Assembly (NCBI RefSeq): GCF_020034655.1
Contig: NZ_JAIQDJ010000001.1
Coordinates: 558,001-622,000 of the forward strand
Length of the DNA stretch: 64,000 nt
Direction: 5' to 3'
From: Thermomonas beijingensis
GTDB lineage: Bacteria > Pseudomonadota > Gammaproteobacteria > Xanthomonadales > Xanthomonadaceae
Shown here: positions 48,482 to 59,717 of the stretch, in pieces
Layout of the letters: every line of letters begins with the position of its first letter
How positions within the stretch are numbered: position 1 is the stretch's first letter
The notes under the pieces: model-generated
What the model was told of the DNA's origin: nothing
Seen by the model: the letters and a program-made list of their open reading frames with translations, nothing else
The model's database searches: none
Program-made: the position numbers and the translations under genes

Positions 48482-50419
48482 TCAACCTGCCAGGAGTCGC
48501 TGGACTTGCGTGGCGAGGTGTTCGAAGTACATGTCGATATAGCTGACGCCGTTTTCAGCGTCGATCAGATACGGGTTCATCAAGGTATGCCGCAAAATAG
48601 TCAGGCGGTCGCCGCCTTCCTCTCCCAGACTTGCCATATCCAAACCGAGCGCATCGAGGATGCGTTGGGTTTCGGCATCGCCCAAGACATCGGGGCGCAA
48701 GGTGGTGACCGATCCGAAGAATTGTTTGTCTTGCAATGGGCGGCTTGGGTCGCAGCGCAATTCGTCGTGCAAATGGCGAACGAATGTATTGGCAGTGGCA
48801 ACGCGATGATTGCCCACCGGATTCAGGGCAACGCAAACAAGATTGCTGTCGGGCACAAACGGTACCATCACATGCACCACAGCGGCCATTGCTTTGGCAA
48901 ACTGCAGTGCGCGGGCATGGAAGGCTTCGGCATGATGAATGGTATTGGCGGGCAGCAAGCCGAAATGGGCATGGTCGAGTGGCAGCACTTTATGTGTGAC
49001 GTACACCCCGGCCACACTGGCGCCGGATTTGGAACCTTCGGGGATGAATTGGCCCAAGCTGCGATAGCGGTTCAAATAGTCCTTGGGGGTGTCGGCATGG
49101 AACACATAATCGGCGGCCTCGGCCAGCAAGCCCACGGCGCGGTGGTCGCGGCAAATGAACGCGCCTGCGCCATAAGGCAGGTAGCCTAATTTGTGCGGAT
49201 CGACGGTGACCGAATCAGTTTGCCCCAGCGCGGCCACCGCGTTGTAAACATCCACTGATGGGAACTGCTGGAAGCCCATCGCCACCGCCTCGCGTGTGCG
49301 CAAGCTGCCATCTTCATTGCGGAACAACGTGGCCAGATAGCCACCCCAGGCGGCATCTACATGCACACCAAAGCCCATCCCGCGTGCGGCAAAGCGGTCA
49401 CGCGCCGAAACCACAGCATCGATGGGATCCACGGTGCCGTATTCGGTGGTGCCCAGTACCGCGACCGCCAGCAATACCGGCTGTCGTTCGCGCAGGCAGC
49501 GCTCCAGCGTGGTTTCCAGTGCATCCACATCGGTACGCATGCCGCGCTCTGGCAAGAGTGCCAATTGATCGCGGCCAAGACCCAGCAGTTTGCAGCCCTT
49601 GCTCCACGAATAATGCGCGGTGATCGGAGCCAACACCTTGGGTACTTTCAGGCTGCTGTGTTTGGCAAAAAAACCCACTAGGCCAGATTGCTCGATACGT
49701 GCATCACTGACGCGCATCTGCCAATGTCTGCGTTCGGCCGCTGTGGCCTGTGTCAGCCAATGCTGCCATTGCGCATACAGCGCAATGCTGGCACTGGGAG
49801 ATAAATTGAACGCCGACCAGTCATCCTCGGGCAGGGTCAGCTCGGGCACATCTGCTGCACGCAATGCCACCGGAAATGCCTTCAGCGCCAATGCCAACCG
49901 CAACGCCTGATAATTGGCGACGGTACCGCCCGAAGTCAGGTGGCCAAATGCGCATTCCGGCTGCGCGGGGTCGTGTGCATATCCCAGCATGCGCGCCAGT
50001 TGCAGGCCCACTTGCACTTCCATGTCCACCGTGACCGGCGCTGCATCTTCAGACACATTATTGGGGTTGTATGGCAGGGTCAGAATTTGTGCGACCAGTC
50101 CTGGCAATAGCAAATCCGACGCCATGTGGCCGATGTAGCGCGGACTATGGAATGGCACCGATTTCTTCAGCGCGGCCGAGAGTTGGTGCAGCTCACGACG
50201 CATGCGGGCCGCAAACGCCAAGTAGTCTGGGTGATGGGCCGCGTGGGTGCCGATGGCAATCGGGTCTTCGGGGTGGAAGTTGCGCCGCCAATACACATGG
50301 TCACGTAAAAATTCGACCACCAATTTTTCTAAAAGATTGTCATTTTCTGCATAAGGGCCGAGGAAGCAGGCATCCAGCATGGGCGGGCGTGACCCGGTGG
50401 CAGTGTGTTGTGATGGCAT
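48482..50419 (-). CDS. Group II PLP-dependent decarboxylase (tyrosine decarboxylase-like)
   Basis: Protein of 645 residues. From memory, the order of conserved blocks parallels enterococcal tyrosine decarboxylase: LDACFLGPYAEN, HSPRYIGHMASDLLLPGL, NNVSEDAAPVT, GHLTSGGTVANYQ, APITAHYSWSKG, HVDAAWGGYLA, and the PLP lysine in SVTVDPHKLGYLPYGAG. It should decarboxylate an aromatic or acidic amino acid; specificity is unknown. The ATG at 50419 (MPSQHTATG) is chosen over a TTG at 50437. It lies between SirB2 and the Cds1-like gene with short gaps. Confidence 0.85.
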   Translation of the reverse strand: MPSQHTATGSRPPMLDACFLGPYAENDNLLEKLVVEFLRDHVYWRRNFHPEDPIAIGTHAAHHPDYLAFAARMRRELHQLSAALKKSVPFHSPRYIGHMASDLLLPGLVAQILTLPYNPNNVSEDAAPVTVDMEVQVGLQLARMLGYAHDPAQPECAFGHLTSGGTVANYQALRLALALKAFPVALRAADVPELTLPEDDWSAFNLSPSASIALYAQWQHWLTQATAAERRHWQMRVSDARIEQSGLVGFFAKHSSLKVPKVLAPITAHYSWSKGCKLLGLGRDQLALLPERGMRTDVDALETTLERCLRERQPVLLAVAVLGTTEYGTVDPIDAVVSARDRFAARGMGFGVHVDAAWGGYLATLFRNEDGSLRTREAVAMGFQQFPSVDVYNAVAALGQTDSVTVDPHKLGYLPYGAGAFICRDHRAVGLLAEAADYVFHADTPKDYLNRYRSLGQFIPEGSKSGASVAGVYVTHKVLPLDHAHFGLLPANTIHHAEAFHARALQFAKAMAAVVHVMVPFVPDSNLVCVALNPVGNHRVATANTFVRHLHDELRCDPSRPLQDKQFFGSVTTLRPDVLGDAETQRILDALGLDMASLGEEGGDRLTILRHTLMNPYLIDAENGVSYIDMYFEHLATQVQRLLAG

Positions 50420-50437
50420 GGGTTGAATCCGACTCAA

Positions 50438-50845
50438 TTAGCGCAGCAACAGCAGCCAACCGGCCGGGTTGTGCATGCGGGCGATGCCGTAGATGAAGGT
50501 GAAGGTGGCCAGGGCGGTGATGTAAAACCCGATGCGCTGGCTACGGCTGCGCTTGGGACGCATCGCCAGGATGCCCAGTACGATGTAGGCCACCACCAGG
50601 CAAAGTTTTACGGTGAGCCAACCATTGGCGAACATCGCTCCCGGCAACATCGAAAACAACATGGTGGCCGAGGTCAATAAAATGGTGTCCACCGTGTAGC
50701 TGGTGTACTTCGGAAGCCAGTGCTGCGGCCAGTGCGCACCCAGGATTGCCGCGCCGCCGCGCAGCGCGAAGATCGCGCCACTGCACATCACTGCATGCAC
50801 ATGCGTCCATTTGACTTGCGGGTAGAACTCCATCATCGGCGACAT
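50438..50845 (-). CDS. SirB2-family membrane protein
   Basis: Protein of 135 residues with four helices, of the SirB family. The start EFYPQVKWTHVHAVMCSGAIFALRG is typical: the His pair and the helix order match the family. Function is not established; relatives sit near respiratory or nitrosative-stress genes. It lies 12 bases downstream of nnrS on the same strand, so the two are probably co-transcribed. Confidence 0.82.
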   Translation of the reverse strand: MSPMMEFYPQVKWTHVHAVMCSGAIFALRGGAAILGAHWPQHWLPKYTSYTVDTILLTSATMLFSMLPGAMFANGWLTVKLCLVVAYIVLGILAMRPKRSRSQRIGFYITALATFTFIYGIARMHNPAGWLLLLR

Positions 50846-50857
50846 GTGCGTGTGTCC

Positions 50858-52108
50858 TCAGCCCGGCCGCCCATCGGCACGCGGGTGCAGATAGATCGAC
50901 AGCGAGCGCAGCGCCCACGGCAGGAACGCCAGCAGCCAGCCGGCGGCGGCAATCACCTGCCACAGATAACTATCGGGAACGGCCTCGGCTGCAATCCGCG
51001 TGATGGCCACCAACTGCAGCATGGCAAACGCAAACCAGCCAGCGGCGGGCATTGCCATTGGGCGGCCGGAATGACCTTGGGTCACGCGGGTCACCATCGC
51101 CACCAGCAAGCTGCCGAAGAAGCCAATATAGATCGCGTGTTGCGGGCCACGGCCCAATATGAATTCGCCGCCAAATGCATACAGCGCGCTTTGTGCAGTG
51201 AATAGTGCGAACGCCACCGGCAGCCACGCAAAGCCGAAGAACAACACGCGCAAAATGCCCGGGGCTTTGCCATGCGGCCACCAGCGCCACAACACATACG
51301 CGCTACCCAGCGCGAGCACGCCATCCACCGGCCACAGCCATGCATTGGCATGCGCCAGTTCCAGACCCAGATGGGCCAGCAGCAACACCCACAGCGCAGC
51401 AATAATTTTCATCGGCCGCCAGGCACGATAGCCCGGCACTGCATTGCCGGCGAAGAACGGGAACATGCGGTGAGCCACCGACAAGTACACTGGCAGCAGC
51501 AAGGCGAAGGTACCCAACTTGATCGATACCACCACCGTCCATGCTGCGGCCCCGTGCAGGAAGGCGGCCATCAGAAATACGCCCGCCAACCCGAATGACA
51601 GCGCCGCAAAGCACGACCACGCATGCCATGTGGGTCCTTTGCCGGCGCGGCGTTCGGCCAGCAGCACGCGCAGCAATTGCACCAGCCCATAGCCCCAGCC
51701 CACCAGCGACATCACCACGCCGATATGCACCATCGGCTCTTGCCCCAGCAACATGCCGCCTACCACCGCCACCTGCCCACCCAGTAACCCCAACCCCACC
51801 GGCACGTAATGCCAGCGCGACAGATCCGGCATCCCCATCCAGCGTGGGAACGTGGTCAGCAAAAAACCGAACATGAAGGGCGGCAACAATTGGTATTGCA
51901 TGATGAAGGCGTGCATCCAGCCGCCAAACGGCGTACCAGCGCGCAAGCCAATCACACCCCAGCGTGCATCGATCAACCACAGCAGCCACCAGCTCATCGC
52001 CAGCAAGACATTGAGTGCGCCGACGAAAAACAGCAGCCGGTGCGGGGCGGTGGTCAGCAGGGCGGGCGAGAGGCCAGTCGCGGATCGATTCGGCGGGGTC
52101 TTGTTCAT
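50858..52108 (-). CDS. nnrS: NnrS-family heme/copper membrane protein
   Basis: Protein of 416 residues with about twelve helices. NnrS features include the early HRLLFFVGALNVLLAMSWW, GWMHAFIMQYQLLPPFMFGFLLTTFPRWM, AHRMFPFFAGN, and the late HAIYIGFFGSLLVAMVTRVTQGHSGR. NnrS proteins carry heme and copper and protect against nitrosative stress, under NnrR/FNR-type regulators. An FNR-like box about 36 bases before the ATG fits that. The ATG at 52108 is the only good start. Confidence 0.92.
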   Translation of the reverse strand: MNKTPPNRSATGLSPALLTTAPHRLLFFVGALNVLLAMSWWLLWLIDARWGVIGLRAGTPFGGWMHAFIMQYQLLPPFMFGFLLTTFPRWMGMPDLSRWHYVPVGLGLLGGQVAVVGGMLLGQEPMVHIGVVMSLVGWGYGLVQLLRVLLAERRAGKGPTWHAWSCFAALSFGLAGVFLMAAFLHGAAAWTVVVSIKLGTFALLLPVYLSVAHRMFPFFAGNAVPGYRAWRPMKIIAALWVLLLAHLGLELAHANAWLWPVDGVLALGSAYVLWRWWPHGKAPGILRVLFFGFAWLPVAFALFTAQSALYAFGGEFILGRGPQHAIYIGFFGSLLVAMVTRVTQGHSGRPMAMPAAGWFAFAMLQLVAITRIAAEAVPDSYLWQVIAAAGWLLAFLPWALRSLSIYLHPRADGRPG

Positions 52109-52143
52109 GCCGGCTAGTGTCGCGCAGGGGCGCGCCGGTCGCC

Positions 52144-52157
52144 TTGATTCAAGTCAG
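52144..52157 (-). promoter_or_regulatory. FNR/DNR-like box upstream of nnrS
   Basis: Read on the minus strand: CTGAC-TTGA-ATCAA. The right half is a perfect ATCAA and the left keeps the TGA core of the TTGAT consensus. Its centre is about 42 bases from the nnrS start codon. Confidence 0.5.
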
Positions 52158-52267
52158 TAGCGTGCCGTGGAGGGGATCCCCCGATTGCGATGGGCAAGCC
52201 GTCCTGGTCCGCCCGGCACAAGTTCCCACACGTATTTGCTGCGCGATAACCCGGGGTTGCGCAAACT

Positions 52268-53356
52268 TCAGGCGATGACGACCGTCAATGGAATCTCCCG
52301 CTTCTTCTTTTTCTGCAGATTCCATGACATCACGCCGGTGCGTGCGTAGGATTTTTCGCAATCCTGAATCGACGGGCCGCGCATGTCGCCTTCCAGATAG
52401 GCCAGCCCCGGGCAACGGCTGCAACTGCTGCCATGCACACAGGACGAGCACCCGTTCAGGTCTGACACGCGGATCGCACGCACCTCGTTGAGTTGTGGCG
52501 AGTCGCGTCAGATGTCGATGAAACGCTGTTCGCGGACGCTGCCCACCTTGTACGGAAACTGCACGCAGGGGTACACATCGCCATACGGCGAGACGTAGCA
52601 GGCGGTGTGGCCGGCGCTGCAGGGCAGGGTTTCGTAGGCTTCTTCCATCGGCGTGGGGCCGCTGGGTGGCGACAGCATCTGCTCGGCTTGGTCACCCAGC
52701 AGGGAGGCATCCTGCAACACACCCGCCAGTCGCCCCGCATCCATGTTCAAGTCCAGGATGGAGCGATCGCCATCCATCATGGGGGTGATGGTGGCATCCA
52801 CCTCGTAGCGGATGCCCATGTCATCTGCCAGTGCCTGCACCTGCTTGTAGTGATCTGCGTTCTGCTTCATCAGCACATTGGCGAAGATGACCTTGACGCC
52901 GGCATCGCGCAGGAAACGGACGCCCTCCATCGTGCGCTTGAACGAACCTGGCAGCTTGGTGATCTGGTCGTGGGTGGCGGCATCGTGCGAATACAGGCTG
53001 ACCTGCACCGACTCCACGTTCAGTGCGGCAATGCGCTTGGCCTTGGCGGCGCGAATCATGACCGCGTTGGTTTTCAGCTTTACCGAAAATTGCAGCTTGC
53101 GGGCGTACTCCACGATCTCGAACAGATCCGGCCGCATGAAGATTTCGCCGCCGCTGATGTTCAGAAAGAACGTGCCCGCCGCCGCCAGCTGATCCAGCAG
53201 GCCCAGGATTTCGGCGGTCGTCATCTCGCCGTGATCGTCGTGATCGAGATAGCAGTGGATGCAGCGCTCGTTGCAGCGGTAGGTCAAATCCAGCTGCACG
53301 CCCAGCGGGATACCCAGCGAGAGCGCGCGTGCGCCCATGTCCCCCATCACGCTCAT
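52268..53356 (-). pseudogene. Radical SAM/SPASM peptide maturase, interrupted by in-frame TGA
   Basis: The upstream part (282 codons, 52508-53356) starts at ATG 53356 with AGGAA ahead. It has the radical SAM cluster site LTYRCNERCIHCYLD (Cys28, 32, 35), then NISGGEIFMRPD, and ends in the first SPASM block CYVSPYGDVYPC. A TGA at 52510-52508 then stops it. The same frame continues 79 more codons with RDSPQLNE and CSSCVHGSSCSRC, the rest of the SPASM motif. In this family the codon at the stop position is usually Trp (IW), so TGG to TGA is a single change. The product as read would lack ligands for an auxiliary cluster. It may be a nonsense mutation or sequencing error. Confidence 0.85.
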
Positions 53357-53371
53357 GAGTGGCGTTCCTGT

Positions 53372-53665
53372 CTAGTGTGCGAAGGGTTGCTCGGCGATCA
53401 GCAGGATACCGCGCTCAGCCAGCCCATGCGCCAGTTCGGTGGCATCCGCCAGCGCGATGTCGTAATCGATGTCGAATTGCGCGCAAAGCGTATGCGCCAC
53501 GATCTCGGCCAACGGAGTTTTGCCGTCGGCGGCTTGCCACAGCAGCGCGGCGGTTTCATTCAGGCTGAACAGCGAGGAGTCGCGGGCCAGCATGATCATC
53601 AGCTCGTCGCCAATCCGGCGCGCCGCAACGTCGCTGGAATGGAGGATATACAGCGGGTTGCTCAT
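53372..53665 (-). CDS. PqqD-family peptide-binding protein (RiPP recognition element)
   Basis: Protein of 97 residues with the PqqD fold pattern: VAARRIGDELMIMLARDSSLFSLNETAALLWQAADGKT, then a helical C-terminal half rich in Ala/Glu. In RiPP pathways such proteins hold the leader of the precursor and present it to the radical SAM enzyme. The gene overlaps the kinase gene upstream by four bases and ends 15 bases before the radical SAM start, which supports the same job here. Confidence 0.9.
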   Translation of the reverse strand: MSNPLYILHSSDVAARRIGDELMIMLARDSSLFSLNETAALLWQAADGKTPLAEIVAHTLCAQFDIDYDIALADATELAHGLAERGILLIAEQPFAH

Positions 53666-54495
53666 GCTTCATTTCCAATCATGTCCCAGACGCGAGCATC
53701 GGGGAAGAACGTGAGACGCCGAACCGGTATGCATGCGGCCAAGGCGATGGCGTTGTCGAACACCTTGGCTGTGAGCGCCTTGTCCTTGGCGAAATACAGG
53801 ATATTGGTCATGACTGCGCGTATTGCTTCGGCCGGGCTGAGGTCGTCGATGCGGTTGTCGGGGCCTTGCGCCAGCAGGAACACCCCCGCCAGCGGGGCGC
53901 GGATATTTTCGCCGGGTGTTGCCAGTTCACCAGCAAAAGGCGTGCCATACGCGTAATAGCCGTCCGCTTCGCGGCGGATAAATGACATCTCATCGGTCAG
54001 GATGTGTGCACCGGGCGGTACCAGCCGTGAAATAGTGGTTTTGCCCGCGCCGGACACGCCCGTGCACACGAAGGCGCGCCCGTCCGCCAGTACCACGCTG
54101 GAGGCGTGCATCAGCATGCCGCCCTGTTCGGCCAGCAGCACCGTGTGGAGGATGCGCAGCACCGAATCCAGCGCATACGGGTTGGCGCGCAGGCGTGCCG
54201 TGCCGTGGCGGGTGGCGGGATCCCAGCGGGCTTCGAAGTCGCCGCGCAGCAGGTGCCAGCCTTCGTCCTCGCGGCGCACACTGACCTCGATGTCGCTGAG
54301 CTCGTCGGGCGCATCGGGGGTGTATGTGAAGGGAAGAATATCGATGTCGAAGATGTAATCGGGCGTATCCACGCTGCCGATGAAACCGCGGAAGCGGTCG
54401 ACCATCAGCGTATTGAACTCCGCGGAGGCGGCACGCAAACGGACGCTGATCCCGCCGATGCGGACGTCGAGATGATGAGGGCGAAGATCGGTCAT
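53662..54495 (-). CDS. HPr kinase-like P-loop kinase
   Basis: Protein of 277 residues. The C-terminal half carries the HprK-like catalytic core: MLMHASSVVLADGRAF (His130), Walker A GVSGAGKTT (about 146-154), ILTDEMSFIRR with a Walker-B-like Asp168, and YGTPFAGE (183-190). The first 110 residues are variable. In lasso-peptide clusters, HprK homologues phosphorylate the C-terminal serine of the precursor; the peptide encoded here also ends in Ser. The gene overlaps the S26 peptidase upstream and PqqD downstream by four bases each. Substrate is inference. Confidence 0.86.
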   Translation of the reverse strand: MTDLRPHHLDVRIGGISVRLRAASAEFNTLMVDRFRGFIGSVDTPDYIFDIDILPFTYTPDAPDELSDIEVSVRREDEGWHLLRGDFEARWDPATRHGTARLRANPYALDSVLRILHTVLLAEQGGMLMHASSVVLADGRAFVCTGVSGAGKTTISRLVPPGAHILTDEMSFIRREADGYYAYGTPFAGELATPGENIRAPLAGVFLLAQGPDNRIDDLSPAEAIRAVMTNILYFAKDKALTAKVFDNAIALAACIPVRRLTFFPDARVWDMIGNEA

Positions 54496-54989
54496 GCCGT
54501 GATAGCGGTGATGCGTGGCCAACGGCAGGCAATACGGTGGGCCAGTGGCACGTTGCGCAGCAGCCAGCGGGTGGTCCGCGGCAACAGGCGGCGGTGGTGG
54601 CCAACCGGATGCGCCAGGATGCGCGAGCGGCGGACGTGTGCTTCCAGCACACCCAACACCTGGCTGGGGTGGACCGGTGCATCGGGGCTGGGCAACGCAT
54701 CGCCCATCGTGATCAGGTGGTCGCCATTGCAGGACACCAGGCGATGCGCCACCAGCGCCGCGTCGCGACGCACCAGCACGATCTGCCCCAAGGCAAGCTC
54801 GTCGGCCGCCGCTTTGCGGAACACCAGCAAGTCGCCGGGGGCGATGGCGGGCAGCATGCTGCTGCCCAGCGCACGGAAGCGGAGCTGGCCGAACCGCTGC
54901 AAGGCCTCCTGCGCCAGCGCAACGCGGGTGCAGGAGGCATCGGCTGGGTGGTCGGTGCTGCTCAAGAGGTTTTGCGGTTGGCGCGGCAT
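54492..54989 (-). CDS. SipW-like S24/S26 signal-peptidase-type protein
   Basis: Protein of 165 residues. The catalytic region RALGSSMLPAIAPGDLLVF has the Ser-Met motif (Ser44). Instead of the bacterial Lys, it has AHRLV (His82), followed by ITMGDALP (Asp97), the Ser-His-Asp pattern of archaeal/SipW signal peptidases. No clear membrane anchor is seen; the C-terminus is Arg/Trp-rich. The ATG at 54989 lies inside the precursor gene (28-base overlap); GTG at 55019 is an alternative. It probably processes the peptide encoded just upstream. Confidence 0.82.
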   Translation of the reverse strand: MPRQPQNLLSSTDHPADASCTRVALAQEALQRFGQLRFRALGSSMLPAIAPGDLLVFRKAAADELALGQIVLVRRDAALVAHRLVSCNGDHLITMGDALPSPDAPVHPSQVLGVLEAHVRRSRILAHPVGHHRRLLPRTTRWLLRNVPLAHRIACRWPRITAITA

Positions 54990-55135
54990 GCTTGCTGGGT
55001 GACAGCAACCTTGCCGCACGACAGCGCCATGGTTTCAAACACGGTTTCGTGGCGGAAGCTGGGCTTGATGTATTCGCGCTTGCTGTTCGGCTGGGAGGAG
55101 TGCGGCGCAAGGGTTGTGTGGTGTGTTTGGGTCAC
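54962..55135 (-). CDS. Candidate RiPP precursor peptide
   Basis: A 57-residue ORF. GTG at 55135 has GGAG at 55148-55145, nine bases ahead, inside the last codons of the upstream gene. The N-terminal third (TQTHHTTLAPHSSQPNS) is Thr/Ser/His-rich. Then comes a leader-like stretch with Tyr22-Ile-Lys-Pro25, as in the YxxP motifs bound by PqqD-type recognition proteins. Then FETMALSCGK (33-42), a second Cys at 50, and the end RANRKTS with Ser57 last. ALS before Cys40 fits the -3/-1 rule of S26 peptidases, giving a possible 18-residue core. It overlaps the peptidase gene and lies in the RiPP operon. Function is inferred from context. Confidence 0.75.
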   Translation of the reverse strand: MTQTHHTTLAPHSSQPNSKREYIKPSFRHETVFETMALSCGKVAVTQQACRANRKTS

Positions 55136-55141
55136 CGGGTA

Positions 55142-57526
55142 TTACTCCAATCCGCTCTGGCTGGCCTGGACGGCGTTGCCGCCAGCGGCCTGCTGTGTGA
55201 AATAGATTTGTGCTGCACCGGGGGCGGTGGTGCTGTTGTTGTCGAGCACAATGCCGCCGGTGCCGCCGGGGGTGGCAAGGGCGGCATTGGCGGTGGCCGT
55301 CGTGCCCCAGCTGACCGTGTTACCGGTGCCATTACGCAGGTTGTTGAGCTGGTACATGTACAGACAGGCACCGTTGCAACCGGTCTGGTTGCCCAGGTAC
55401 GGCATGCTGAAGTAGATGTATTCGTTGCTGCCCTGCTTGGCATAGGTGACCGGTGACCAGTTCCAGACGCCGGTGAGGCAGTCGTTGTTGACATTGTTGC
55501 AATTTGCGCCGACCACTGGCCCCTTGACCTGGGAGCTCATGACCCCGTTCGTGAGCAAAATCTTCCAGAGCGTCGGGTTGAATGTCGTGGTGGGATCCCC
55601 GCCGACGATGTACATCGCGCCGGTGCCGTTACTGCTGTTGTAGTAAGCGTCATCGAACGCGCCGGCATACAGGCTGCTGACCCGGCTGTTGCCGCGGCCC
55701 ACGTAGGCGCGCTGGGCAGGCTGCGCACCGGCGGCAAAGCCGGGGGTGAAGCGCGCCACCACGCGGCAGGCACTCTGGTCGCCACCCGTCGTGGTGTCGG
55801 GCGCGCAGTTGGTGGTATCGCCGGCGGTGCCGTCGTTGAACAGGAAAGCGAATACGCTGCCGCTGCCCGCGGGGGTACCGGTGACGATCACGGATTCGCG
55901 CAGGCCGGTGGAGTCGACGTTCGCCAGCTTGGCGCTGTCGTACTTGGTGCCATTGGTAGAGTTGATACGATGCAGTTTGCCACCCAAATCACCCGCGCCG
56001 CTCTGGCTGCCGATATAGACATTGCCGTTGTAGTACACCGGCGCGGATAGTTTCATGCCACTGGCCACCGGGGCCGGGAAGCCGCCGCTGGTCACCTCGG
56101 CGGGGGTGCCTTTGAACACGCCGGTGAACTTGTGCAGCTGGCCGTTGCCATCGCCCACGTAGAGCTCGTCTTTGGCGTAGTCCACAAATGGCGAGGAATA
56201 GGTCGGGGTGCTGCCCGTGTTGGTGATGCCAAAGAGTGTGATCGCGGTCATGGCTGCCGCTGAACCGCTGCGCGCAGCGGCATACGCGGTAGCACTGCTG
56301 GAGGTGATGGCGGTGGGGTTGGCAGCCGCCGCAAGGCGAGCGGCGCTGGTGGTAAGTGCGGCCGGCTTCAGCAACACCAACTGCAGGGTATTGCCATTGC
56401 GCTGGATGAAGGCCACCTGCTTGGCATTGTCATGCCAGGACAAGACGGGTGAGGTTTCCACCACGTAGCCGTCACCTGTGTTGTAGGACCACATCACGTT
56501 GGGCGCCTTGGCGTCGTCGGCGGCATCGCGACCGGTGGCGGTGGTGCAGGTGCCGTTATACAGCTGGTTGAAGGCGATGATGGTGGGCTGGCCGGCGGTG
56601 CCGCTGCCGTTGACGCCGCCAGGGCCAGTCACATTGCTCAAGCCATTGCTGATATGGCCGTCGGGGATGTTCCCCAGCGTGTTGGCAGTGATGGTGATGG
56701 TGGACGACGTGATGGCGGTGGCGATATAGCCGGTTTGGCCGCTCCAGCGATTCACCGCATCACGCAGGTTCTGAATCGTGTTAGCCACACCATTGATGCG
56801 GAAATTCTGTTGGGTATTGCTGGTGCTGCTGGCGGTGAGAACCACTTGGCGTGGGCCTGCCGGACCAATCGTGAAGGTTTGCAGGTTGTTGGGGACAGCG
56901 CTGAACGTGTATACCCAAGTTTCGTTGGTGCCAGCCACTTGGGTGGCGCCCGGAGCATTGGTGGGGTACACGATAAAGTCGGTAGGGCAGTTGGCTGCGC
57001 TGACCGGCTGGGTAATATCAAACCGGTACTTGGCCGGATATACCCCTTCCATGCCTCGGCCGCCCTGCCCATTGGTGCCGCCGCCGAGCACATTGCTCCA
57101 GTCGCGCACCACGCTGCTGTCGGGGGCTTGCGGAGTATCCGTGCAGTGCCAGCTGCGGGGGTCCGGGCCACGCTTGGTGGGGCAAGCCGCAGGGGTGGCC
57201 TTTGCCGTGGCGGCAACGGCGGAGCCGGCACCGGGTTGCAGCGTGTTGGTGCGCGGCGCGGCAGGCGCAGGCATTTCGGCATCAATGCGCCGCAGCAACT
57301 GGGCAAGATAGCGCGGGTCGTTGTACAGCCGGCCCATGTCTGCATTGCGGCCAGCGGCGGCAAATTCATCCGGCGTCATGGGTTTGCTGTACACCACGGA
57401 GCGGCTGCTCCAGTCGGTGACTGCAGGAATATTGCCGGGGTCTGTTTGCTTGTCCGTTGCATGCGCAGAGGACAGTCCGCAAAGACCCATTGCGCACGCA
57501 AGCGCAAGCGAATTGGTGTAACGCAT
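55142..57526 (-). CDS. Secreted beta-propeller-like protein heading the RiPP operon
   Basis: Protein of 794 residues. A signal peptide (MRYTNSLALACAMGLCGLSSAHA) is preceded by GGGGG-AC before ATG 57526; a start 16 codons upstream is rejected. The sequence has repeated blade-like strands such as SPFVDYAKDELYVGDGNGQLHKFTG and APVYYNGNVYIGSQSG, and many Asn/Thr/Gly loops with paired cysteines. The long middle resembles PilY1/PQQ-propeller proteins but no pilus or Ca-site match is convincing, so I do not call it PilY1. Its stop lies six bases before the peptide start, with the peptide's ribosome site inside it. Confidence 0.75.
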   Translation of the reverse strand: MRYTNSLALACAMGLCGLSSAHATDKQTDPGNIPAVTDWSSRSVVYSKPMTPDEFAAAGRNADMGRLYNDPRYLAQLLRRIDAEMPAPAAPRTNTLQPGAGSAVAATAKATPAACPTKRGPDPRSWHCTDTPQAPDSSVVRDWSNVLGGGTNGQGGRGMEGVYPAKYRFDITQPVSAANCPTDFIVYPTNAPGATQVAGTNETWVYTFSAVPNNLQTFTIGPAGPRQVVLTASSTSNTQQNFRINGVANTIQNLRDAVNRWSGQTGYIATAITSSTITITANTLGNIPDGHISNGLSNVTGPGGVNGSGTAGQPTIIAFNQLYNGTCTTATGRDAADDAKAPNVMWSYNTGDGYVVETSPVLSWHDNAKQVAFIQRNGNTLQLVLLKPAALTTSAARLAAAANPTAITSSSATAYAAARSGSAAAMTAITLFGITNTGSTPTYSSPFVDYAKDELYVGDGNGQLHKFTGVFKGTPAEVTSGGFPAPVASGMKLSAPVYYNGNVYIGSQSGAGDLGGKLHRINSTNGTKYDSAKLANVDSTGLRESVIVTGTPAGSGSVFAFLFNDGTAGDTTNCAPDTTTGGDQSACRVVARFTPGFAAGAQPAQRAYVGRGNSRVSSLYAGAFDDAYYNSSNGTGAMYIVGGDPTTTFNPTLWKILLTNGVMSSQVKGPVVGANCNNVNNDCLTGVWNWSPVTYAKQGSNEYIYFSMPYLGNQTGCNGACLYMYQLNNLRNGTGNTVSWGTTATANAALATPGGTGGIVLDNNSTTAPGAAQIYFTQQAAGGNAVQASQSGLE

Positions 57527-57787
57527 AGATGTCCCCCTGAAGTCGAATCTGGCATGCCAACAAAGTGGCGGCATGGTAACAGATGGGCGTCACACAAACG
57601 GAAAGAGCATCTTTATTTTTTTTTCGTAATGTGCGTTTGAGCTAAAAAGTGACACGGGAGGTCAGTTGTTGCCGTGTGAGGGTTAAGTATTCGAAAATTA
57701 ACAAGTGGTCTGGTAGGGTGAAGCCACATAAATTGCTGCAGTGCAGCAATAGTTTTGCGAAATCCCCCCCCCGCAATGTCCTGGATG
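57527..57787 (-). promoter_or_regulatory. Upstream region of the RiPP operon
   Basis: 261 bases between the esterase stop and the propeller gene. It holds a small hairpin (57732-57750, 8-9 bp arms of ATTGCTGC) and an A/T-rich stretch at about 57610-57630 whose minus strand reads AAAAAAAAATAAAG. Promoter signals are not clear enough to place. Confidence 0.4.
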
Positions 57788-58750
57788 TCAGCGCCGGACT
57801 TGCCCCACCGCACGGTCAATCCAGTCCGCTACCGCACGGGTGTAGTTCGAAGCCAGGCCCAGCTGCTGGTTGATTGCGCCGTGTTGCATGGCCTCCGGTA
57901 GCACCTGCATGGACACGCCAAGCGCGCGCGCGCGTTGCTCGAGTTTGCGTGCTTCATCACAGGGTGCGGTGGGAAAGTGGCGGGTGCTGGAGCACACCAG
58001 CAGCATCGGCAGTGCGTTGCGGTTGAGTTGTTGCAGTGGCGACACCGATGCCCAGTAGGCCGGGTCACTGCCGAAGGCGTCGTGATACAGCTGAGGTACG
58101 CGCGCCTGCCCCATCAAGGCCGGCACATCCAGTGCGCCGCTGTCCAGTGACACCACGCCCAGTGGACGGCGTGCACCGGCTTGGCGCAGCAATGCAGGTG
58201 CACTGCCCAGCAGGGCCACCAGATGGGCACCGGCCGAATGCCCCATCAGCACCACGCGCTCCGGATCCGCCCGCCATTGCCGCGCATGCTGTTGCACAGA
58301 AGCCAAGGCGGCAGCCACATCGCGGGCTTGGGTCATGGGGTCGGCCGCTGGCTCCAGCCGGTTGTTGACCGAAACAAATACAAAGCCTTTGCCCAGCCAG
58401 TACGTCGCTTTGTTGTCGACCACACTGGCATAGGCCTTGTCGCCACGCCGCCAGCCGCCACCGTGCACCATGAACAGCACGGGCGCGTTAGCGTGCAGCT
58501 GGGCGGGCAGATACACGTCGTAGCGCTGCTTGGGGTCTTGGCCATAGGCGATATCACGCTCAACGTCCGCACCTGGCGGCACACTGGCCAGCAATGCCCG
58601 TTCATGGCCTTCTGCATCGCTTTGCAGGCCGTCCTGCAGGTGTTGCAGGATGCGCTCGCGAATGCGTTGTTGGGCGGGAACCGGGCTACTTGCAGTGGCA
58701 AGCAAACCCAGTGCAAGCAGGCAAACCAGAGTTGGGGCAGCAACGCGCAT
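57788..58750 (-). CDS. Secreted alpha/beta hydrolase (esterase)
   Basis: Protein of 320 residues with a signal peptide (MRVAAPTLVCLLALGLLATASS). The oxyanion motif HGGGWRRGD and the nucleophile GHSAGAHLVALLGS put it in the carboxylesterase/HSL-like group; the third-triad histidine is probably in EAMQHGAIN. The start at 58750 begins the signal peptide; an ATG 13 codons upstream is less likely. Substrate unknown, probably a small ester or peptide ester in the periplasm. Confidence 0.88.
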   Translation of the reverse strand: MRVAAPTLVCLLALGLLATASSPVPAQQRIRERILQHLQDGLQSDAEGHERALLASVPPGADVERDIAYGQDPKQRYDVYLPAQLHANAPVLFMVHGGGWRRGDKAYASVVDNKATYWLGKGFVFVSVNNRLEPAADPMTQARDVAAALASVQQHARQWRADPERVVLMGHSAGAHLVALLGSAPALLRQAGARRPLGVVSLDSGALDVPALMGQARVPQLYHDAFGSDPAYWASVSPLQQLNRNALPMLLVCSSTRHFPTAPCDEARKLEQRARALGVSMQVLPEAMQHGAINQQLGLASNYTRAVADWIDRAVGQVRR

Positions 58751-58920
58751 GGCCGGCAATCCATTGGGAGGTTGATGGCGACAACGCACGGCACGGACAA
58801 GTGGTTGACCTGTGGCCCTGAGTGACAGCTGTCATCGACGACCACTGACGCTTGCACGTGGCATGAGAATCCTGCTTGCGGACAATGCACAGCGTCCAAT
58901 CCGGACGCAGGAGAACCCCC

Positions 58921-59181
58921 ATGAATACCCAGACCCAATCCCGCCCAGTGTTTGCAGAGCAGCTACAGGGGAAAGTGGGTGAGTTGATGGATCGTGTCAC
59001 CAGCGAGGCGCCCGGCGCAGAGCGTTCGCGCCTGTTGCGCTGGCTGTTGCTGGCGGTTACCGTGTTTGTGTTGTGGCGTATCGGGCGCGGCGCGAAGAAA
59101 CTGTTCTGGAGCCTGTTCGGGATCGGCATGGCGCTGTGGTGGAGCGGCGGTGCGGTGTGGTTTTTCCGGCACGTCAACTAA
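58921..59181 (+). CDS. Small membrane protein of unknown function
   Basis: An 86-residue protein. The first half is polar and helical (QTQSRPVFAEQLQGKVGELM). Two hydrophobic segments (about 37-55 and 61-82, with WLLLAVTVFVLWRIG and FGIGMALWWSGGAVWFF) predict two membrane helices. No family recognised. The ATG at 58921 follows AGGAGAA at 58909-58915. It lies upstream of the SET-domain gene in the same direction. Confidence 0.65.
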   Translation: MNTQTQSRPVFAEQLQGKVGELMDRVTSEAPGAERSRLLRWLLLAVTVFVLWRIGRGAKKLFWSLFGIGMALWWSGGAVWFFRHVN

Positions 59182-59252
59182 CCACGATGGGGCGATGACG
59201 GATGGCTGATCTTGCGCCAGAATGGCGCCATCCCAGAGCACTTGTTGCCACG

Positions 59253-59717
59253 ATGCCGAAAAAAATCGCGACCCGTAAATCCACCATCCACGGCAATGGC
59301 ATGTTCGCAGTTGCCGCAATTGCCAAAGGCGAGCGATTGATCGAATACAAGGGCCAGCGGCGCACCCATGAGGAGGTGGATGCCGGTGAGAGTGGCGACA
59401 TCGAAAGCGGCCATACCTTCTTGTTCACGCTCAACGATGCGTGGGTGATCGACGCCAACATCGAAGGCAATGCGGCGCGTTGGATCAACCACAGCTGCGC
59501 GCCCAATTGCGAGGCAGTGCTCGTGGAGGATGCAGGCGCGCCGGCAAAGTCGCGGGTGTTCATCGAGGCAATTCGTGCCATCAAACCCGGCGAAGAATTG
59601 ACCTACGACTACGGCATCACCTTGGCCGAACGCCACACCGGGCGGCTGAAAAAAATCTGGGCTTGCCGCTGCGGCTCGAAAAAATGCACGGGCACGATGC
59701 TGAAGTCGAAGCGATAG
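59253..59717 (+). CDS. SET-domain protein-lysine methyltransferase
   Basis: A 154-residue single SET domain. Motifs: HGNGMFAVAAIAKGE at the N-terminus, WINHSCAPNCEAVL for the SAM/active-site knot, EELTYDYG for the catalytic tyrosine, and a post-SET cysteine cluster CRCGSKKCTGTM. Such small SET proteins are widespread in Xanthomonadaceae, Bordetella and chlamydiae; targets are mostly unknown. The ATG at 59253 (MPKKIATRKS) is chosen; an in-frame start 17 codons upstream is rejected. It converges on the lipoprotein operon with three bases between stops. Confidence 0.9.
   Translation: MPKKIATRKSTIHGNGMFAVAAIAKGERLIEYKGQRRTHEEVDAGESGDIESGHTFLFTLNDAWVIDANIEGNAARWINHSCAPNCEAVLVEDAGAPAKSRVFIEAIRAIKPGEELTYDYGITLAERHTGRLKKIWACRCGSKKCTGTMLKSKR

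Follow-up and report, generated by a model that had tools for sequence, protein, structure and literature searches.

Several described systems resemble the gene cassette reported here. The SynChlorMet cassette (ScmC, ScmD, ScmE, ScmF) shares with it an HprK-like protein, for which ScmC is the best match, a PqqD-like protein and radical S-adenosylmethionine (SAM) enzymes; SynChlorMet has two of the latter, and two SynChlorMet radical SAM models are listed in NCBIfam. The HprK-related kinases A and B (TIGR04352, TIGR04355), families reported alongside PqqD-like proteins, share the kinase type. Sactipeptide and ranthipeptide synthases (SkfB, AlbA, StsB, CteB) share the layout of a radical SAM core plus a SPASM domain, and Cys residues in the peptide core. 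The kinase-containing lasso-peptide clusters are those of paeninodin, whose kinase we take to be named PadeK, and of ThcoK, SyanK and BsfK. As far as the available parts of two papers describe them (PMC8498205, PMC10368454), these share a PqqD-type recognition protein, an HprK-like kinase with largely the same motif and a terminal Ser, and, in the available part of the second paper, a YxxPx[L/F] leader at nearly equal distance. The cassette lies in a 64,000-nucleotide stretch of Thermomonas beijingensis (NCBI RefSeq assembly GCF_020034655.1, contig NZ_JAIQDJ010000001.1, positions 558,001 to 622,000, forward strand), called the window below and numbered from its first letter. It is probably a biosynthetic unit for a ribosomally synthesized and post-translationally modified peptide (RiPP), of a family in which a lasso-like front end is paired with a radical SAM enzyme of sactipeptide-like type. 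Judged by sequence comparison, the block of six genes is genuine and has been kept together as a unit, with a precursor pattern shared over four families of Gammaproteobacteria.

The six genes run on the minus strand from 57526 to 52268 in the order secreted protein, peptide, S26/S24-type peptidase, HprK-like protein, PqqD protein and radical SAM/SPASM enzyme. Two of the junctions are exact four-base overlaps (54492-54495 and 53662-53665); two others are gaps of exactly 6 and 15 bases. The first-pass annotation had described this layout, and its strand, coordinates, four-base overlaps and gaps were confirmed; its 28-base overlap of the peptide and peptidase genes exists only with the S26-type start at the ATG at 54989. 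Of its family names, Radical_SAM, SPASM and PqqD were recovered above the Pfam cut-offs, and the S26/S24-type and HprK-like assignments as sub-threshold matches only. An Rfam scan of 50000-59500 gave no match at the gathering threshold, a promoter and terminator scan returned signals at chance level only, and a PHROGs search gave no match.

The precursor gene (54962-55135, minus strand, GTG start) encodes 57 residues, with a YxxPxF leader followed by C-x9-C and a C-terminal Ser. Y22, K24, P25, F27, E30, V32-L38, C40, G41, K42, Q47, C50 and the last Ser are invariant in ten aligned peptides of the genus. When distant peptides were added, Y22, P25, E34, A37, C40, K42, C50 and S57 were invariant in 13 of 13 aligned precursors. 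The tail from the second Cys to the last Ser is variable in the genus, so that the constant C-terminal Ser stands out; among control frames of at least 100 residues, 61 of 883 end in Ser. The Cys spacing is 9 or 10 residues among the genus peptides and 9 to 13 among the distant ones. Counted from the first Cys, the core has 18 or 19 residues and a net charge of +3 to +4. A cut before this Cys would put Tyr, Pro and Phe of the leader at -18, -15 and -13; the available part of PMC10368454 gives Tyr, Pro and Leu at -17, -14 and -12 for lasso leaders, with a YxxPxL motif. The genus residues before the first Cys are ALA or ALS, compatible with S26 cleavage. The precursor is conserved next to PqqD and radical SAM genes at 10 loci of the genus and at 4 distant ones, which bears out the conservation between species that the first-pass annotation had made a test of its reading.

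Distant peptides were found through gene context and not through the genus profile. A profile of the HprK-like protein matched in 36 of 321 genomes of the class, and scores above 46 bits were obtained, apart from its own genome, in five of them (G404, G520, G351, G479, G525 in our labelling). The contexts examined were L067-L072 from these top five genomes and 16 contexts of weaker matches; the 14 weaker of the 36 genomes fell outside this wide-context look. The four strongest distant relatives of the HprK-like protein have 24-37% identity to it and come from three other families. L067-L070 all carry S26/S24-type, HprK-like, PqqD and radical SAM genes; the S24 Pfam match exceeds its cut-off in L068 and L070, misses it narrowly in L069 and falls somewhat short of it in L067. 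A search pattern built from the peptides of the genus, L069 and L070 recovered exactly one peptide each in the window, the nine genus loci and L067-L070 (14 of 32 loci); neither L071 and L072 nor any of the 16 weaker contexts yielded one.

Peptide homology was then scored by rank in a reciprocal test of a profile of the nine genus peptides and a profile of the distant peptides. The genus profile placed five distant peptides at ranks 1-4 and 11 among 4264 frames; the distant profile placed eight genus peptides at ranks 1-7 and 9 among 1915 frames of a genus target set without L015 and L063. A joint profile searched against the class gave E <0.001 in 5 of 279 genomes, all already aligned, and at a second place in G351 outside the alignment. 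At this place (L176:2623-3257) a second precursor with YxxP, two Cys and a terminal Ser lies beside a lone PqqD gene, and the 16-kb stretch around it gave no radical SAM, S26 or HprK-like match. On the stretches examined, G361 (joint-profile E 0.0024) and G378 had neither a cassette gene nor a motif peptide, and the other hits among the 44 of 279 genomes that the joint profile matched at E 0.5 or lower were taken for chance. The 16 weaker HprK contexts (L129-L144) contain no radical SAM, S26 or motif peptide; L142 has a 32-bit PqqD match. L071 and L072, both from G525, have HprK-like, PqqD, S26 and radical SAM matches. With the genus profile alone, the single genome with a matching peptide was its own, both among 321 genomes of the class and among 349 of the phylum, in searches that score part of the first-look candidates in many genomes and can miss distant members. 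A second pair of S26-type and HprK-like genes was seen at L069:2-808, on the same contig as the main G351 cassette.

The HprK-like P-loop protein (53662-54495, minus strand) had its best NCBIfam match in TIGR04249 (ScmC) at 38.3 bits, under the cut-off of 125. Its AlphaFold2 model (predicted local distance difference test, pLDDT, 84.3) matched PEPCK folds best (8.3e-10) and HprK/P lower down (8.1e-04); the HprK and PEPCK folds are related. The motif in the window is H130-G146-G149-G151-K152-T153-D168-E169, written as H130..G146xxGxGKT..DE. For the lasso kinase BsfK, the available part of PMC10368454 gives H-G-G-G-K-S-D-D. Relative to BsfK, Ser is replaced by Thr and the second Asp by Glu in the window, and G149 is variable in our alignment A8. 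The phosphorylation site of lasso kinases is a C-terminal Ser in the available part of PMC8498205. The kinase named by the first-pass annotation thus draws support from the PEPCK/HprK-type model, the largely kept lasso-kinase motif and the Ser end in 13 of 13 rows, with kinase activity as a prediction. In the proposed pathway it would phosphorylate the C-terminal Ser, the sole invariant hydroxyl residue of the core. A plasmid search with the HprK-like protein gave no match. The adjoining PqqD-family protein (53372-53665, minus strand), a putative RiPP recognition element, matched Pfam PF05402 at 1.4e-12, above cut-off, and the NCBIfam model lasso_PqqD_Strm at 26.4 bits (cut-off 70). By analogy with the lasso case, it would bind the leader via YxxPx[FIL] and present the peptide.

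A YxxPx[FL] leader, a PqqD protein, an HprK-like kinase and a terminal Ser are all lasso-like, and the cassette of G237 has as its neighbour a lasso-type cluster that includes an Asn_synthase gene. It is nevertheless very unlikely that the block is an unusual lasso-peptide locus with its cyclase encoded elsewhere. Neither an Asn_synthase cyclase nor a transglutaminase-like B2 protease was matched in the cassette or among the ten window neighbours scanned (43.9-63.8 kb), a result that upholds the first-pass statement that this is not a standard lasso system. A radical SAM/SPASM enzyme is present in place of the cyclase, and an S26/S24-like peptidase in place of the B2 protease. The core has two conserved Cys, and the 13-row alignment contains no conserved acidic core residue that could form a macrolactam ring.

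The radical SAM/SPASM enzyme is encoded by the last gene of the block. Its N-terminal part (52508-53356, minus strand) matched Radical_SAM (PF04055, 1.4e-21) and SPASM (PF13186, 2.6e-06), and SkfB was the best solved-structure match of its profile (E 2.6e-20); among the NCBIfam matches listed for the protein, all 25 lie far under cut-off. CX3CX2C and CX2CX5CX2C are present in nine of nine intact genus proteins. The four distant proteins align across the core (hhalign 99.9% with L069) and keep CX3CX2C, and CX2CX5CX2C is found in none of the four; they appear closer to the twitch than to the full SPASM type. Its predicted role is to cross-link the core, most likely through a thioether that starts at one of the two conserved Cys or at both.

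In the window this gene is interrupted by one TGA at 52508-52510, after which the same frame resumes to 52268. A frameshift was considered and ruled out, since the frame is identical on either side of the single TGA, which is therefore an in-frame stop. At nine of nine relative loci (L015-L020, L062-L064) the gene is free of internal stops. The continuation (52268-52507, minus strand) carries the CX2CX5CX2C..C cysteines of the SPASM domain, the second half of which is cut off, and as predicted from the gene the enzyme of the window strain is without its C-terminal iron-sulfur ligands. With the gene interrupted, the pathway is probably silent in this strain unless the stop is an assembly error. 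Somewhat short of an even chance is given to the block being a decaying, functionless remnant in the window strain, with a working system in relatives only. The loss of half the SPASM domain fits such decay, as do the broken genes of other carriers. Against it, the five other window genes are open. Moreover, the segment after the stop has 80-86% identity to relatives and a ratio of non-synonymous to synonymous differences (pN/pS) of 0.21-0.33, similar to the 0.16-0.40 of the part before it, so that the break is either recent or a sequencing or assembly error.

The S26/S24-type peptidase gene (54492-54989, or from a GTG start at 55019, minus strand) matched TIGR02228 at 32.7 bits and PF00717 at 20.9 bits, both under cut-off. 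Ser54, His92 and Asp107 are invariant in the six rows aligned, and we take them to be the catalytic pattern of Ser-His signal peptidases. Three proteins checked are without a membrane-like stretch (maximum KD19 1.21), and the peptidase seems to be intracellular. It would free a core of about 18 residues near the first Cys.

The first gene of the block (55142-57526, minus strand) encodes a large protein of 794 residues that is a genus-wide conserved partner of the peptide; it looks secreted, from an N-terminus judged by eye to be signal-peptide-like. No family match above cut-off was obtained, and a sequence search of solved structures was also null. Its structure is poorly modelled (mean pLDDT 54.7). 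Among the Foldseek matches listed, many have beta-propeller titles, with query-normalised template-modelling (TM) scores of just 0.12-0.26, and at this model confidence they mean little; a propeller identity is possible. An inserted, better-modelled region (56627-56977, about residues 184-300) may be a separate domain. A widespread propeller family was looked for and rejected, as a search of 299 phylum genomes matched the protein's own genome only (1 of 299). At the genus loci the gene before the peptide encodes a propeller-like protein. In L067, L068 and L069 the peptide gene instead follows a Peptidase_C25 gene (1415, 1426 and 1297 residues; 1.4e-61, 1.2e-72 and 9.6e-72) with the C25 domain near the protein end, the L067 frame stopping within the domain. 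The L070 contig ends upstream, and the last residues of its upstream frame resemble a C25 end by eye. The "secreted propeller" of the first-pass annotation stands as a conserved partner within the genus, with a weakly modelled fold and with a C25 peptidase in its place in distant relatives. As the least certain step of the proposed pathway, the protein might be an extracellular partner of the product: its receptor, carrier or target.

Wherever a cassette locus offers enough context, the gene directly ahead of the peptide gene encodes a large secreted-looking protein, propeller-like in the genus and a C25 peptidase in L067, L068 and L069. This arrangement would suit a peptide that works not as a free natural product but, cross-linked and phosphorylated, as a small subunit or ligand assembling with the secreted protein. 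Such an assembly would parallel quinohemoprotein amine dehydrogenase, in which a small subunit modified by a radical SAM enzyme joins the propeller subunit. Methylamine dehydrogenase heavy chains are among the Foldseek matches of the weak partner model (TM-scores 0.18-0.19), and thioether chemistry is described for QhpD in the available part of PMC8326336. We consider such a subunit unlikely. The partner type differs between lineages, the lone second G351 peptide (L176) follows a PqqD gene instead, no peptide exporter was seen in the window, and the confidence of the partner model is too low for fold matches to count. Little credence is likewise given to a broader proposal, a gammaproteobacterial RiPP class in which a two-Cys peptide, cross-linked by a radical SAM enzyme and phosphorylated at its terminal Ser by an HprK-like kinase, would be mounted on, or regulate, a co-encoded secreted protein (the propeller in this genus, the C25 peptidase in other lineages) as a detachable cofactor or regulator, not as an antibiotic.

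Within the genus the peptide was found in 9 of 25 genomes, and the secreted partner in the same nine. Gene order is kept at L016, L017, L018, L019, L020, L062, L063 and L064, and at L015 up to the contig end, which comes before the partner gene. The genes thus recur together in relatives, as the co-occurrence test set by the first-pass annotation had asked. A family search with the HprK-like protein gave a strong match (at least 278 bits) in 5 of 296 genomes, all of this genus, and best matches below 25 bits in seven further genomes. G614 has two cassettes, and at L062 and L063 a second, contig-cut partner gene adjoins the first. Against the window, every gene compared has a pN/pS in the range 0.16-0.71, at nearly saturated pS.

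The left-flank genes of the window (NnrS, SirB, decarboxylase) keep their synteny in six genus genomes examined, five of which are cassette-free and one of which (G620) has its cassette on a different contig; no cassette gene was found on the six syntenic stretches. Proteins of the window flanks had no match at the relatives' cassette loci. In a tree of the cassette, G621, G620, G237 and G225 group with support 100 and G081 lies outside, whereas a tree of Mfd unites G225, G237 and G081 (support 100, or 91 with 18 genomes). Together, the unmatched flanks and the conflicting trees indicate that the cassette has its own history as a unit. Either transfer or duplication with loss could account for this. 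WecA-like and TetR-type genes share the locus of the cassette in L016, L017, L018 and L064; at L064:1177-5435, L017:3410-7669 and L018:10367-14584, genes for ManC, an ABC transporter and a WecA-like protein, part of a polysaccharide locus, border the cassette and are convergent with it. In these last three, counting from the radical SAM gene, the ABC transporter gene comes second, so that the absence of a dedicated ABC exporter claimed in the first-pass annotation describes the window only. In G237 the directly adjoining lasso-type cluster (L019:12197-16781) has Asn_synthase, HprK-like and PRMT-like methyltransferase genes, and no lasso precursor was identified in it. On the other side of that cassette an NTP_transf_5 nucleotidyltransferase gene was seen (L019:5483-6634), with relatives on L018, L020, L067 and L068.

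The patchy distribution (9 of 25 genomes), the incongruence of the cassette and Mfd trees and the short cationic core (net +3 to +4) would be in keeping with a bacteriocin whose immunity or delivery factor is the secreted protein. The core is well conserved, however, and not diversifying, a typical immunity gene is absent from the cassette, and the C25 peptidase partner of the distant lineages is not an obvious immunity factor. A bacteriocin therefore seems improbable to us.

Several observations weigh against a RiPP unit with a lasso-like front end and a sactipeptide-like enzyme. The interrupted radical SAM gene of the window strain is one. In G081 (L020:8139-12191) the frames of the partner, S26 and HprK-like proteins are broken, possibly by decay or by assembly errors, with those of the peptide, PqqD and radical SAM proteins open, and the partner gene is split in L019; given the broken genes of the window strain, L020 and L019, either the pathway is frequently defective or the assemblies contain errors. 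With CX2CX5CX2C missing from all four distant radical SAM proteins, the chemistry there may differ. The distant peptides keep, of the ALA/ALS cleavage pattern, Ala at -3 alone. Single E-values in the reciprocal test were weak, 0.27 to 4.9 one way and 0.00056 to 2.1 the other, which leaves the ranking to carry the homology argument, and in that ranking the L069 peptide was only 11th and the L064 peptide only 9th. A Gly/Cys-rich peptide with a YxxPxL stretch and a non-Ser end lies directly before the HprK-like gene at L071:7438-8504 and is perhaps another kinase-linked peptide family. BsfK, finally, phosphorylates an internal and not a terminal Ser according to the available part of PMC10368454. 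Taken with the supporting evidence, the single pathway proposed in the first-pass annotation is partly supported: its genes co-occur, its peptide is conserved and the case for its kinase is strengthened, with the chemistry, the sequence of reactions and transcription as one operon as predictions.

Within the open-access literature, a body that leaves most subscription papers and bioRxiv outside, no description was found of one precursor being acted on by a peptide kinase together with a radical SAM/SPASM enzyme and a soluble protease resembling signal peptidases. The same literature yielded no paper on a signal peptidase with PqqD and radical SAM proteins, on a radical SAM enzyme and precursor peptide with HprK, on a peptide kinase with a radical SAM enzyme in RiPPs, or naming SynChlorMet; the papers in it that join PqqD and HPr kinase all concern lasso peptides. 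Compared with the lasso clusters, a radical SAM/SPASM enzyme, an S26/S24-type peptidase and a secreted partner are found only in the cassette. Compared with SynChlorMet, its proteins score under cut-off for ScmC (38.3 of 125 bits) and for ScmD (16.6 of 100 bits), and against HprK-related kinases A and B its kinase-like protein reaches 20.2 and 27.0 bits for cut-offs of 200. Because the lasso and the SynChlorMet families each have tested features that it lacks, the cassette is, from its gene content, a predicted RiPP system outside them. We know of no HprK-like kinase in sactipeptide or ranthipeptide systems. SkfB and CteB carry the recognition domain at their own N-terminus, in the available part of PMC8326336, whereas the cassette has a separate PqqD protein. 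If the proposed chemistry holds, the enzyme toolboxes of lasso kinases and sactisynthases would be joined here on one precursor, and there would be a testable reason for such peptides being encoded right behind large secreted proteins.

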